Shown: piece after piece, positions 13,559-18,875 of the stretch
Layout of the letters: each line of letters opens with the position of its first letter
How positions within the stretch are numbered: the stretch's first letter is position 1
IMG/VR virus record: IMGVR_UViG_3300033233_000120
Coordinates: 1-32,478 of that record
Origin: a virus
Strand: one strand, 5' to 3'
Length of the DNA: 32,478 nucleotides
The notes under the pieces: model-generated
What the model saw: only the letters and a program-made list of their open reading frames with translations
What the model was told of the DNA's origin: nothing
Database searches by the model: none
Program-made: the position numbers and the translations under genes

Positions 13559-14052
13559 AAGAGACAACTAAAAAGAAAAAAGATTTGGACTTACTAATTG
13601 AGAATCACAAAATTCTCAATAGGGGCAAGGCAAAACAGAAGGTCGTAAAACAGAATGACGAGATTTGGAGTTTAATCGTAAGGCTTCGAGACAACTTTAC
13701 CTGTCGAATGTGCGGGAAGTCTACAAAATTCGTTGAGGCGGCACACATTATCGGAAGGGATAACTGGAACACTCGCTGGGACACCCGCAACGGGGTAAGT
13801 TTATGCTACTACTGTCATAGATTTAAAATTCATGGCGGTCGACTTACAGAAGAAGAAAAAATTGATTTTTACAAGAACGCAGTCGGTGAAGAGACTTATG
13901 AAAACTTGCTTGAACTGTCTAAACAACCTGTTAAACGAAATCTCACTTATGCACAGGCTTGGAACGAGTTATTGAGGAAGGAGTTCGTAAAATTGACTGG
14001 TATGAGTTTTGAAGAATTTAAAAAAGCAATGAAGGAGGCAAAAAATGACTAA
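13555..14052 (+). CDS. HNH endonuclease (NinG/Rap-like context)
   Basis: 165 residues, AAAGGAGG site. A Lys-rich head is followed by the HNH module: Cys50-x-x-Cys53, His64 in EAAHIIGR, Asn79, Cys84-x-x-Cys87-His88. This is a zinc-stabilised beta-beta-alpha-metal nuclease. The helical C-terminal half ends in LTGMSFEEFKKAMKEA. Position at the end of a replication/recombination block recalls lambda NinG/Rap, a structure-specific recombination nuclease. A packaging-associated HNH is the alternative, though those usually lie next to the terminase. Confidence 0.8.
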   Translation: MKETTKKKKDLDLLIENHKILNRGKAKQKVVKQNDEIWSLIVRLRDNFTCRMCGKSTKFVEAAHIIGRDNWNTRWDTRNGVSLCYYCHRFKIHGGRLTEEEKIDFYKNAVGEETYENLLELSKQPVKRNLTYAQAWNELLRKEFVKLTGMSFEEFKKAMKEAKND

Positions 14053-14314
14053 ATACATTAAAATGGGCTTTCATATCATTGATGCGAATACTTTCGAATT
14101 TAATTATGCACCGCAAGAACTTGAGCAAACTCTAAAAGAAAAAGGTTTCGAAATTGTAAGCAAGTCAGTTTATTATGATGGATACTGTACAATCGTCGTG
14201 AGACACAAGCCCGAAGATATTAGGATGCTATTAGACATTTTTAGAGAAAGAAACGCACAAGTAATTGAAGACTATAAAAAAGAGCGAAGTATGCTTGGCA
14301 ATTCTGGCAATTAG
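14045..14314 (+). CDS. Small hypothetical protein, paralogue B
   Basis: 89 residues, AAGGAGGC site, 8-base overlap with the HNH gene. Residues ~15-75 match the protein at 12001 by eye (F-N-Y-A-P-Q-E-L-E-Q-T-L-K-E-K-G-F-E-I, then TIVVRHKPEDIRMLLDIFRE). It carries an extra basic C-terminal extension (DYKKERSMLGNSGN). Function unknown; retention of two copies implies related but separate roles. Confidence 0.55.
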   Translation: MTKYIKMGFHIIDANTFEFNYAPQELEQTLKEKGFEIVSKSVYYDGYCTIVVRHKPEDIRMLLDIFRERNAQVIEDYKKERSMLGNSGN

Positions 14315-14724: not shown

Positions 14725-15270
14725 GTGAAAAAGGTTTGCGTTATCTGTGGCAAGGAATTTGAAGGCAAAACAGACGCAAAATATTGCTCTGATGAGTGCA
14801 GAAAACAAGGAGAAGAGATACAAAGGCGACTTTATAACATTAAACGAAAACACGAGAGGCGATGGGTTGGCTGGTATAATAAACATAAATTGGAAGTCTC
14901 TATCAGACGCAAAGAATACTACTATAATGTCCAAAAGCAACGAGATGCGACTATGAGTTTACGCAAGGTAATGCGTCGAGATGGCGAGGGTAAGAAAATA
15001 CCAGAGATACAAGACTACGTAAAAGAACTTCATAAAGCAGTCAGGTTTTTAGATGGTGAAGACATTATTCTAAACGACATCGGACTTAGAATTGTAAACT
15101 TCCTGGATAGTTGCAGGCGGGCTTGGATATCAGTTGTTCCGATAGAAAACCAACACATTGACAGGGTTCTAAACTTTATCGAGGCAGAAAATCTGTCACA
15201 ACAGGAGCAGAACATTGTCATAGACTTTTTACAAAATCACGAAAAAAAGTTGACAAAAATTTTTGTTTGA
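14725..15270 (+). CDS. Zinc-ribbon, basic protein
   Basis: 181 residues, GTG start after GAGGTGAACC. The N-terminus has Cys5-x-x-Cys8 ... Cys21-x3-Cys25 in VCVICGKEFEGKTDAKYCSDEC, a treble-clef or zinc-ribbon finger. This is followed by a strongly basic helical segment (RRLYNIKRKHERRWVGWYNK, ~34-75) fit for nucleic-acid binding, then a helical C-terminal domain (~95-180). Such finger-plus-basic proteins in phages are often regulators. It is the last gene before the leader and terminator at 15295-15437 and may act on them, which is conjecture. Confidence 0.6.
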   Translation: MKKVCVICGKEFEGKTDAKYCSDECRKQGEEIQRRLYNIKRKHERRWVGWYNKHKLEVSIRRKEYYYNVQKQRDATMSLRKVMRRDGEGKKIPEIQDYVKELHKAVRFLDGEDIILNDIGLRIVNFLDSCRRAWISVVPIENQHIDRVLNFIEAENLSQQEQNIVIDFLQNHEKKLTKIFV

Positions 15271-15275
15271 CGATA

Positions 15276-15288
15276 ACTTAAGTATAAT
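15276..15288 (+). promoter_or_regulatory. -10 element of the packaging operon leader
   Basis: ACTTAAGTATAAT with TATAAT at 15283-15288, matching 12 of 13 bases of the box at 9310-9322. No good -35 lies at 16-18 bases upstream (only TTTTTG-like). TTGACA at 15250 is 27 bases away and TTGACG at 15267 only 10. It may need an activator or a phage-modified polymerase. Confidence 0.5.
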
Positions 15289-15294
15289 GTTATT

Positions 15295-15437
15295 GTGAAA
15301 GTTTCTGGGGAGTGCACCCTTTTTGGGTGCGGGACAAGAGGACTTTCGGTGGTGGGCTGTCCTCTTAACAAGAAAAGGAGTAGCGACGTCGATGCGGGGG
15401 AGTTCCTACCTCCTTCTCTCTCCCGCTGTTTTTATTT
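15295..15437 (+). ncRNA. Structured leader or small RNA
   Basis: Between the -10 at 15283 and the terminator is ~140 bases without a coding frame but with ordered helices. They are GCACCC/GGGTGC (15314-15319 with 15325-15330, T5 loop), AAGAGGAC/GTCCTCTT (15336-15343 with 15359-15366), and the terminator stem. GAAAGT near 15297 can pair with ACTTTC 15342-15347 instead. AAGGAGTAG (15375-15383) can pair with CTACCTCCTT (15406-15415), which would open the terminator. It could be a free small RNA or an attenuator leader for the genes at 15450 onward. Confidence 0.55.
15394..15437 (+). terminator. Intrinsic terminator before ParB-methyltransferase gene
   Basis: Nine-pair stem GCGGGGGAG (15394-15402) with CTCTCCCGC (15418-15426), one G-T pair, 15-base loop, then TGTTTTTATTT. 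It stands 13 bases before the next ATG, so it acts as an attenuator on the packaging operon rather than as the end of an isolated operon. Confidence 0.8.
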
Positions 15438-15449
15438 GTGAGGTGAGTA

Positions 15450-16778
15450 ATGCAGATAGAAAAACGCAAAGTTTCTGAACTGAAATTTTATCCTGGCAAT
15501 CCACGAAAGATTTCTCCTGAGACATTAGAGAAATTAAAAAATTCTATAAAAGAGTTTGGTATTGTTGACCCATTGGTTATAAATAAAAATAACGAAGTCA
15601 TTGGTGGCGATCAAAGACTAAAAGCAATTCGGGAATTAGGAATTACAGAAGTTGATTGTGTTGTAGTAGACCTTCCAAAATCTAAGGAAAAAGCACTCAA
15701 TATTGCATTAAACAAAATACAGGGCGAGTTTGACGAGGAACTGTTAAAGGCGTTTATAGAAGACATAGAGCCGATTGATTTAGAGCTTACGGGACTTGAT
15801 GATAGTGAACTTTATGTATTAGATTGGCAGAGACGATTCGACGAAAACACTAAAGGCAAATTACGAAAGGATTTTTTATATCCACCGTTTACGGTTATTG
15901 ATACGAGAAGTATGCAATGGAAACAATTATCAGCGTATTGGCAAGATAAATATGGGAATGAGTTAACGGAAACAAAAGATTATTTGCTGAGTAAGGGTAT
16001 GCTTGCAACCATTAATAAAGGCACATCAAAATTTGACCCAGTATTGGCGTCGGTAATATACAAATGGTTTATGCCAAAAGATGGCGGAATTATTTTGAAT
16101 CCAACGTGTGGTGAACCGACAACTGGCGTTGTTGCAGGCGATATGGGGTTTGGTTATTTGGGTGTTGATATTAGAGAAGAACAGGTAAATATTAACAAAG
16201 CGTTAATAGAAAAATACAAGTTGGAAAATGTGCAATATATAACATATGATGCGACAAAATTGAATGAACAAGTTGTTGGTGGGAGAAAGTTTGATTTGGT
16301 TTTCTTTTCGCCTCCGTATTATTCACTTGAAGTATATAGTTTAGAACAATCAGATATTTCCAATAAAAAAGGTTATTTAGATTTTATGAATGGTTTCAGC
16401 AAAATCATAAAGAATGCGGCACATTTGTTAAAAGAAAATAGATTTTATGTTATTAAATTAGGCGATATAAGAGAAGTCTTGGGACCAGAAACTGGCACAT
16501 TATTAAACTTTATTGGTGATACAGTCAATATTGCGAAGCAATATGGACTAAAGTATTATAATGATATTATTTTAGTTAATGCTGTAGGCACAGGAGCAGT
16601 GAGAGCGAGAAAGTATTTTCATAACAGAAAAATGGTTAGGGTGCATCAAAGAGTAGTAGTATTCTATAAAGGAGATTTTAATAAGATTCAGGAAGAGTTT
16701 GCACAAGAGTTTGATGAGGAGGCATATAACAAGTTTATTGGAGAGAAGATTGTTGATGATGAAGATATTGAGAGTTAA
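15450..16778 (+). CDS. ParB-like N-terminal domain fused to DNA methyltransferase
   Basis: 442 residues, GTGAGGTGAG site. Residues ~1-105 are a ParB/Srx-type domain (VSELKFYPGNPRKI ... VIGGDQRLKAIRELG). The methyltransferase part has a SAM-binding motif I at ~217-235 (NPTCGEPTTGVVAGDMGFGY, LGVDI) and catalytic SPPYY at ~286-290, so it should methylate adenine N6 or cytosine N4. Motif I departs from the usual D-P-F-x-G-x-G. Phage ParB-MTase fusions commonly protect DNA or mark packaging sites. Third positions are more AT-rich than in neighbouring genes, suggesting later acquisition together with the next gene. Confidence 0.85.
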   Translation: MQIEKRKVSELKFYPGNPRKISPETLEKLKNSIKEFGIVDPLVINKNNEVIGGDQRLKAIRELGITEVDCVVVDLPKSKEKALNIALNKIQGEFDEELLKAFIEDIEPIDLELTGLDDSELYVLDWQRRFDENTKGKLRKDFLYPPFTVIDTRSMQWKQLSAYWQDKYGNELTETKDYLLSKGMLATINKGTSKFDPVLASVIYKWFMPKDGGIILNPTCGEPTTGVVAGDMGFGYLGVDIREEQVNINKALIEKYKLENVQYITYDATKLNEQVVGGRKFDLVFFSPPYYSLEVYSLEQSDISNKKGYLDFMNGFSKIIKNAAHLLKENRFYVIKLGDIREVLGPETGTLLNFIGDTVNIAKQYGLKYYNDIILVNAVGTGAVRARKYFHNRKMVRVHQRVVVFYKGDFNKIQEEFAQEFDEEAYNKFIGEKIVDDEDIES

Positions 16779-17250
16779 TTTGTTAGAAAAGCAGTTGCGA
16801 GCACAAGTAATTAAAGAGTATTTAAACAGCTTAGGCACAAATGAATGTGTTTGTTTCACGTGTGGGAATGCAAGCAAAGCGTTGAGGGCTGTCGGGTTGG
16901 ATGTAGTTAGCGTAGGAATTAACGAGGAATTAAAACCGAACAAATGGTTTGAGCCAGAAGAAATTGAACGCACATTTAAAAGATTTAATGCAACCAGTGG
17001 TTATCTAAATATATTTTTACTTAATAGAATTGCTGACAGAATGCGGAGTGCGTTGGGCGAGTTGGAAGATAATGAATATTTAGTGCCAACTGGGAGTGGT
17101 GAAACAATTTTAGTGCTTACAATTGCTTACCCAGAAAAAAATTTTTATCCCTTGAGAGAAGGCACGCCTGAAACAAAGTATGATGAGGGTTGCCCTCTCA
17201 ATAGGTTAATTGAAGCAATTATTAATAAGCAGGGGCCATATGACACATGA
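16756..17250 (+). CDS. Hypothetical protein linked to the methyltransferase
   Basis: 164 residues from ATG 16756, chosen because GGAGAG lies at 16740-16745; TTG 16753 or ATG 16759 are possible. It overlaps the methyltransferase end by 23 bases. Distinctive stretches are CVCFTCGNASKALRAVGLDV and YLVPTGSGETILVLTIAYP. They faintly recall glycine loops of fold-type II PLP enzymes, but the protein is half the size and shows no clear PLP lysine, so I do not assign that. Shared codon use and overlap suggest it works with or beside the methyltransferase. Confidence 0.55.
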   Translation: MMKILRVNLLEKQLRAQVIKEYLNSLGTNECVCFTCGNASKALRAVGLDVVSVGINEELKPNKWFEPEEIERTFKRFNATSGYLNIFLLNRIADRMRSALGELEDNEYLVPTGSGETILVLTIAYPEKNFYPLREGTPETKYDEGCPLNRLIEAIINKQGPYDT

Positions 17251-17710
17251 TAAAGAAGCCATTATAGAGTATGCAAAAGAGTTGTTTTTAACACCAGATG
17301 AGCAAGGCAATCACAGATATTCGTTGCGTAATATTGCAACGCAGGTGCAACAAAAATTCAATAGAAGCATTAACGCTTCAACAATTTTGCGGTGGGCTGA
17401 AAAATACGGCTGGGACAAACTCTGGGACGAAGGAGTTCGGGAAGGTATAACAGAACTCATAGCAAAGCAAGAATCAGACAAGACAAAAGAGGAGCAATTC
17501 AAGGAAGCGATAGCAAAGGCGAAGAGAAATGATTTTGTTATCGCCTCGAATTTAAAGACATTAGGCTATCAGTATATCAAAGAACACGGTTTTGGTTCAG
17601 TTATGGAAGCATTAAAGGCAATCGAGACAGGTATGAGATACACACAGGACATTCAAGAACTTGATATGGACCAAGTTATCGTTGTGAGGATAAAGCGAAA
17701 TGGTGATTGA
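17240..17710 (+). CDS. terS: Terminase small subunit-like protein
   Basis: 156 residues; ATG 17240 follows CAGGGG, and an upstream in-frame start would deepen the overlap. The N-terminal domain (RYSLRNIATQVQQKFNRSINASTILRWAEKYGWDKLWDEG, ~25-65) is a DNA-binding HTH of the type found in small terminases that carry a W-x-x-K-Y-G-W motif. A coiled central part and a short C-terminal tail follow. It would bind pac or cos DNA and deliver it to TerL, whose gene overlaps its 3' end by 11 bases. Confidence 0.8.
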   Translation: MTHDKEAIIEYAKELFLTPDEQGNHRYSLRNIATQVQQKFNRSINASTILRWAEKYGWDKLWDEGVREGITELIAKQESDKTKEEQFKEAIAKAKRNDFVIASNLKTLGYQYIKEHGFGSVMEALKAIETGMRYTQDIQELDMDQVIVVRIKRNGD

Positions 17711-18875
17711 AATCGAGCAGGAAGTATTTAACCCTAAATATATAGACCTATTAGACAACAAGTCGAGATATTTAATTCTCTATGGCGGGGCAGGTGCTGG
17801 GAAGTCATATTTTGCAGCACAGAAAATTCTTATTCGGACTTTACAAGAGAAGAAGAGCCGTATTCTTGTAGTTCGTAAGGTTGCAAGGACATTGCGAAAT
17901 TCAAGTTTTCTATTATTGAAAGATTTAATTTCGGAATGGAACTTAACAAGCCTTTTTAAAATAAACGATGTCGAAATGAAAATCGTATGTCAGAACGGAA
18001 ATCAGATTTTATTTGCTGGTTTAGACGATGTTGAGAAACTAAAAAGTATTGCAGGTATAACTTCAATCTGGATAGAAGAAGCAACCGAACTTTCAGAAGA
18101 TGACTTTACACAAGTTGACTTGCGACTTCGAGACCCAAGCGAGTACCATCAAGTCATTCTGACCTTTAACCCTGTAAGTGCCTTGCATTGGCTGAAAAAG
18201 CGATTTTTTGATACGATAGACAACCGAGCAGAAATTCGCAAAACAACTTACCAGGATAACAAATTCATAGACCAATCGTATGTCGAGGTTTTGGAAGGCC
18301 TGAAAACACAGAACGAAAACTTGTATAAAGTCTATGCATTAGGAGAGTGGGGAACGCTTTCAGAGCTGATTTATACTAATTGGGACGTCAAGGAGTTTGA
18401 AACTAATTTCGACGAGATTATTGCAGGCGTGGACTTCGGATTTAATAACCCTTCCGCTGTAGCGTATGTCGGTATTAAGGACAACGAACTTTATATTTTT
18501 GATGAGATTTGCCAAAGTCATTTAAAGAACTCCGAACTCATAGAACTCTTAAAAGACAAACCGCAGGCGAGTGTTTATTATCCTGACCTTGCAGAGCCAG
18601 ATAGAATTGAGGAACTTGAGCAGGCGGGATTTGTAATCGGTAAAACTGATAAAGATGTCATACAAGGCATAAACTTTGTAAAGAACTTCAAAATTCACAT
18701 ACACCCACGCTGTGTAAATTTCATAAAAGAAATTCAAGGCTATTCTTACAGGAAAGATAAGGACGGGAATGTTTTAGAAGAGCCCGTCAAGTTTAACGAC
18801 CATTTGATGGACGCATTTAGATACGCAGTATATTCGCATTTAAAACGAGGAACACCAGAGGTGGTGATAATTTAA
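17700..18875 (+). CDS. terL: Terminase large subunit, PBSX family
   Basis: 391 residues. The ATPase domain has Walker A (GGAGAGKS, residues 29-36), Walker B SIWIEEATEL (~120-130) and the coupling motif VILTFNPVS (~155). The RNase H-like nuclease domain has Asp245 (AGVDFGFNN), an acidic residue in YYPDLAEPDR (~299) and Asp367/Asp371 (NDHLMDAFRY). It cuts concatemeric DNA and pumps it into the prohead through the portal encoded next. It is somewhat shorter than typical PBSX-type terminases (~420-430). Confidence 0.95.
   Translation: MVIEIEQEVFNPKYIDLLDNKSRYLILYGGAGAGKSYFAAQKILIRTLQEKKSRILVVRKVARTLRNSSFLLLKDLISEWNLTSLFKINDVEMKIVCQNGNQILFAGLDDVEKLKSIAGITSIWIEEATELSEDDFTQVDLRLRDPSEYHQVILTFNPVSALHWLKKRFFDTIDNRAEIRKTTYQDNKFIDQSYVEVLEGLKTQNENLYKVYALGEWGTLSELIYTNWDVKEFETNFDEIIAGVDFGFNNPSAVAYVGIKDNELYIFDEICQSHLKNSELIELLKDKPQASVYYPDLAEPDRIEELEQAGFVIGKTDKDVIQGINFVKNFKIHIHPRCVNFIKEIQGYSYRKDKDGNVLEEPVKFNDHLMDAFRYAVYSHLKRGTPEVVII

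Follow-up and report, generated by a model that had tools for sequence, protein, structure and literature searches.

A narrowly distributed leader RNA that ends in an intrinsic terminator precedes the late genes of nine related phages

What is the role of the non-coding gap that separates the last early gene of this phage from its packaging and head genes? In lambdoid phages, the last early gene encodes the antiterminator Q, and the PR′ leader ends at tR′. The window, by which we mean the whole stretch of 32,478 nucleotides analyzed here, is an IMG/VR virus record whose gene order parallels that of lambdoid phages: replication O, DnaB helicase, a NinG-like nuclease, small genes, p181, the leader, a methyltransferase, terminase, portal, protease and capsid. 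In this order, the leader follows the last early gene and comes before the packaging and head genes, within a gap of 180 bases that runs from the end of p181 (15270) to the ATG at 15450 and has ~50% GC, versus 37% GC in the neighborhood. A first-pass annotation of the sequence had described about 140 non-coding bases with three hairpins at this site. All three hairpins are present, and the region is laid out as follows.

14725 to 15270, + strand: p181, an ORF of 181 amino acids with an N-terminal CxxC...CxxxC zinc-ribbon-like motif (Cys5, Cys8, Cys21 and Cys25 invariant in nine relatives), the last gene before the putative promoter
15283 to 15288, + strand: −10 box TATAAT, invariant in 9/9
15295 to 15437, + strand: leader RNA or terminated transcript of ~143 nt, a sharp-bordered conservation block whose covariance model matches only the nine relatives
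15314 to 15330, + strand: hairpin H1, GCACCC-5 nt-GGGTGC, stem invariant and loop variable
15336 to 15366, + strand: hairpin H2, AAGAGGAC-15 nt-GTCCTCTT, stem invariant and loop variable
15375 to 15383, + strand: linker AAGGAG(TAG), conserved, single-stranded and Shine-Dalgarno (SD)-like, the 5′ half of a proposed antiterminator
15394 to 15437, + strand: intrinsic terminator, in 9/9 relatives; hairpin 15394–15426 with arms 15394–15402 and 15418–15426, then U tract TGTTTTTATTT (15427–15437)
15406 to 15415, + strand: CTACCTCCTT in the terminator loop, anti-SD-like; the loop varies outside its conserved CCTCCTT
15440 to 15445, + strand: SD sequence GAGGTG of the first late gene, at the 3′ edge of the conserved block and kept whichever gene comes next
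15450 to 16778, + strand: ParB-domain DNA methyltransferase, the first late gene of the window, missing at this place in the relatives
17237 to 17710, + strand: small terminase subunit (TerS), directly after the leader in 7 of 8 relatives
17700 to 18875, + strand: large terminase subunit (TerL), Terminase_3

Using neighboring-gene searches and DNA patterns, we located the same element in eight more phage contigs of IMG/VR; metagenome 3300033233 supplied seven of them and metagenome 3300043540 the eighth. In the nine phages, which form two subgroups, the block from the −10 box to the SD sequence is kept with sharp borders. In aligned windows, identity between the subgroups is ~0.9 at 15298–15397 and ~0.84 up to 15433, drops to 0.2–0.6 upstream of the −10 box and, in the comparison of the window with contig L012, is below 0.3 past the SD sequence. 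Since the relatives show indels of 1 and 5 bases, no conserved reading frame crosses 15295–15437, which agrees with the non-coding assignment. The coordinates first given for the region are correct.

Searches for further copies came back empty. An Rfam scan of the leader, which the first-pass annotation had put forward as a check, gave no family match at the gathering score and nothing relevant at E values up to 10, and blastn against 50,697 phage records found no match to the element. Across 84,980 species genomes, the DNA pattern matched 20 times; the 13 matches that were read in context look like chance, in other and mostly GC-rich surroundings, and the covariance model found nothing convincing in any of the 20 (best E 0.09). 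Looser viral patterns gave two chance matches within coding genes, one in a helicase/primase-like gene (L101) and one in a terminase-like gene (L103). The covariance model detected no distant homologue at 65 TerL (terminase-related) loci, no second copy was found in the genome of the window, and a portal protein search in 398 genomes of one phylum returned only distant portal relatives (29%–38%). The leader is a real and new RNA family, narrowly distributed and in a known kind of regulatory position.

How strongly is this RNA constrained? Among the same phages, fourfold-degenerate sites of the TerL gene differ by 0.39 on average, whereas the value is 0.035 for the RNA stems, 0.000 for the H1 and H2 stems alone and 0.119 for the unpaired remainder of the RNA; these pooled figures are descriptive, since the compared pairs share ancestry, but the contrast is large. 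Variable columns avoid the stems (5/46 versus 33/107, Fisher p 0.008). The terminator hairpin, at −16.4 kcal/mol, is far more stable than shuffled sequences (z −3.8, 0/200), and H1 and H2 together are moderately so (z −2.3, 4/200). The complete 160-nt fold is not more stable than its shuffles (z −0.41, 71/200). A further pairing of the 5′ end with H2 (GAAAGU:ACUUUC) looked compensatory in contig L042 and was rejected because it fails in L012, L017 and L038.

The terminator itself has a 15-nt loop, and its U tract ends 12 bases before the ATG at 15450, one fewer than first counted; in other respects, the earlier call of a clear terminator ahead of this start codon stands. Its stem is GCGGGGGAG/CUCUCCCGC, with GCGGGGGAG/CUUCCCCGC in L013 and GCGGGAAAGG/CCUUUCCCGC in L042, the most diverged copy, where pairing is maintained. 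Pairing is thus kept through G-U/A-U/G-C and G-C/A-U changes, with 1 of 81 cells broken across copies. A covariation model built from relatives, another check proposed at the outset, shows a terminator stem that survives base changes and invariant H1 and H2 stems; a formal test on the nine copies was not significant, since only 3 of 29 pairs vary. For this reason, the terminator call is based on the shape and stability of the hairpin, on its U tract and on the upkeep of its stem, not on covariation statistics. It is well supported that a structured, selectively constrained RNA ends in a terminator right before the late/packaging operon.

If the leader is transcribed and terminated, what purpose would it serve? 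We favor, with a probability of roughly 0.6, a late-operon gate of the lambda PR′/tR′ type, in which a regulator or the leader RNA would carry polymerase through a promoter-proximal terminator. Transcription would begin near 15295, from a promoter whose −10 box is perfect but which has no good match to a −35 element 16–18 nt from it; polymerase would make the folded ~143-nt leader and would halt at the intrinsic terminator (15394–15437). Read-through into the terminase and structural genes would come late in infection, brought about by a phage factor (p181 being the most likely one) or by the leader RNA, and translation of these genes would then begin from the SD sequence at 15440. Since there is no good −35 element, an activator may be needed at this late promoter.

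We read the locus in this way because of its gene order and because of the terminators in the corresponding gaps of lambda, HK022, phi11 and THSA-485A. A control scan for terminators, run in the same way on the gap after Q (lambda and HK022) or after RinA (phi11 and THSA-485A), found a terminator hairpin ahead of the late genes in all four: in the Q-S gap of lambda, in HK022, between rinA and terS of phi11, and between the RinA-family gene and the next gene of THSA-485A. The PR′ leaders of lambda (6S RNA), HK022 and phage 21, which end at tR′, share with the window a late promoter after the last early gene, a short leader, an intrinsic terminator and then the late genes (PMC6606751). At that promoter, Q binds polymerase and makes it terminator-resistant (PMC6606751; PMC6266700). 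The lambda leader nevertheless has no sequence relation to ours; the window leader contains invariant hairpins and precedes packaging genes, not lysis genes. Both phi11 (rinA-terS) and THSA-485A resemble the window in having a regulator gene, a gap of 175–190 nt with a terminator hairpin, and a late operon, but their regulators belong to another family and the covariance model found no similar RNA in THSA-485A. L044, a distant relative, carries an analogous arrangement: a −10 box, a short leader and, immediately ahead of an ORF upstream of TerL, a terminator. In phi11, the hairpin GGGTTGGCTGATTATAGCCAATCC is followed by TTTTTT (L152, 2841–3026, between rinA and terS), so a promoter-proximal terminator may also lie in the path of late transcription under RinA.

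The p181 protein stands where Q stands in lambda and RinA in phi11, and from this position we infer that it is a candidate late regulator. It matches PHROG 2862, a family of unknown function, and is only 32%–36% identical in amino acids between the subgroups. Several observations count against a Q-type gate. No similarity was detected between p181 and lambda Q, RinA or the RinA-family protein of THSA-485A, and comparison with the PDB gave no fold match, the structure model being too weak for matching (pLDDT 68). A candidate for the −10-like pause element that Q needs, TATTGT at 15291–15296, occurs in subgroup 1 only and is not kept across both subgroups. The energy model of the isolated RNA prefers a non-terminator fold in six of nine copies, and a plain gate has no need of invariant H1 and H2 stems. 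Either these stems would be a recognition element for read-through, contacted by a conserved phage protein, by Nus factors or by host polymerase, or the terminated RNA would have a second task; we take them to be a candidate recognition or antitermination element. Since p181 shows no detectable relation to Q or RinA and its model is weak, we do not file the element as a member of the Q systems; at most, it works like one.

The genes on either side have changed far more than the leader. TerS is 53%–63% identical, and in L012 the whole terminase has been replaced (TerL 28% identical), with the element nearly unchanged (93%–100% in 40-nt windows). The replaced module of L012 (3662–5772) also encodes a queuosine-precursor transporter (TIGR00697, E 2.5e-25) and a 465-amino-acid protein weakly similar to DpdA (E 0.003), which makes 7-deazaguanine DNA modification possible. 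In the window only, the ParB-methyltransferase gene and the next gene, of 161 amino acids, are inserted between leader and terS (15450–17250); the closest methyltransferase homologues found were those of L002 and L003. Starts of TerS also differ. In contigs of the L008/L017 type (L008 4720–4780 and relatives), the TerS frame follows the SD sequence with no nearby ATG, GTG or TTG; ATT/ATA codons come after an in-frame stop there, pointing to a rare start codon. In L007 and L009, the GAGGTG is followed by an overlapping mini-ORF, ATG GTT GGA TAA, whose inner TTG would start TerS. Upstream in the window (14045–14314) lies a gene for an 89-amino-acid protein with a diverged paralogue (~37%) elsewhere in L012, L038, L039 and L041.

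Could the leader switch its own terminator? The first-pass annotation had proposed that AAGGAGTAG (15375–15383) pairs with CTACCTCCTT (15406–15415) and breaks the terminator. The pairing can form with one C bulged, and its core of six pairs, AAGGAG:CTCCTT, is present and invariant in 9/9 copies, some of which add two or three pairs. Since CTACCTCCTT lies in the terminator loop and in neither arm, the pairing removes no terminator base pair directly, and a six-base-pair linker-loop complement is expected in ~22% of composition-preserving shuffles; as the pairs never vary, covariation is uninformative. The helices are probably largely exclusive, since both at full length would form a pseudoknot with a last loop of only 2–3 nt. 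With each helix enforced, the predicted energies for the window are −48.8 for the antiterminator versus −46.9 for the terminator, and over the nine copies the states lie 1–8 kcal/mol apart, with the antiterminator form favored in 6/9 and the terminator in 3/9. These properties would suit an attenuator in which AAGGAG:CUCCUU and a second helix, formed by 5′ GGGGAG with the 3′ arm of the terminator, make up an alternative fold and a ligand or protein shifts the balance. However, when the terminator stem changed in L042, 5′ GGGGAG did not follow, and there the terminator form is ahead by 5.6 kcal/mol. The pairing survives as a possible antiterminator, and we regard an attenuator of this kind as quite improbable. 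One driven by ribosomes on a leader peptide is also unlikely, since the nine copies hold no conserved leader peptide: the ATG at 15392, behind AAGGAG, is lost in L042 and displaced and out of frame in others. The CCUCCUU sequence might just as well serve as an anti-SD-like element, and AAGGAG as a contact site for a protein or the ribosome.

Another possibility is that H1, H2 and the linker form a put- or nut-like RNA that binds polymerase or Nus factors and causes read-through of its own and later terminators. In HK022, put RNA itself can antiterminate, and its two hairpins likewise lie near the transcription start, before terminators; the two invariant hairpins here, within ~75 nt of the start, resemble putL in this respect (PMC9378689). 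That the RNA is unchanged while the neighboring candidate regulator diverges to 34% is as expected if the partner is host polymerase, and the 3′ side of H2 continues into CTCTTAACA, a loosely boxA-like core found nowhere else in the window. However, this pattern was picked only after the sequence had been viewed, half of the core lies within the H2 stem, and TCCTCTTAACA departs from the boxA consensus GYTCTTTAANA (PMC5725501) in lacking one T and the first G; in a scan with the consensus, the best matches fell elsewhere. The leader matches none of the put, nut or boxA consensus sequences and no Rfam family. Its geometry also differs, as put has two long irregular stems with an RNA triplex and an A9-G35 contact (PMC9378689) and the leader has short regular stems of 6 and 8 pairs with a 5-nt joint and no long bulged stems. 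Moreover, an antiterminator that is always on would leave the terminator beside it without a purpose, unless it were regulated. We therefore hold this reading to be possible but doubtful. Its stronger form, that a new phage RNA family itself makes host polymerase termination-resistant at the late promoter and is kept while the neighboring protein regulator is swapped, we judge unlikely. It is also conceivable, though again we are inclined to doubt it, that the RNA, once terminated, acts in trans as a phage small RNA, its exposed CCUCCUU loop covering SD sequences for instance, with late read-through secondary. IsrK of the Gifsy-1 prophage, a short RNA with terminated and read-through forms beside and downstream of a Q-like regulator gene, indicates that terminated leaders of this type can become small RNAs (PMC4825925), although it has no sequence relation to our leader, for which trans action is only a candidate role. 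CCTCCTT is kept while the remaining loop varies, and predicted duplexes with the SD regions of early genes are as strong as −14 to −15 kcal/mol. But CCTCCTT suits nearly any SD sequence and could instead pair within the RNA, no extended complementarity was found, and the genome has no second copy. Least probable by far is a DNA element, a cos or pac packaging site beside the TerS gene. The site does lie just before terS in most relatives and contains inverted repeats, but loops vary and stems do not, a −10 box marks one edge of the element and a U-tract terminator with an SD sequence the other, and L012, where the terminase was exchanged, contradicts it.

Only for lambdoid coliphages have gates on late genes been studied in detail. 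That the leader has outlived exchange of both the neighboring regulator and the terminase suggests that part of the late switch works at the level of RNA, and it offers a small, self-contained element for testing. Finally, since phi11 and THSA-485A share this promoter-leader-terminator layout, late leaders with a terminator may be more widespread among Firmicutes phages than is usually stated.
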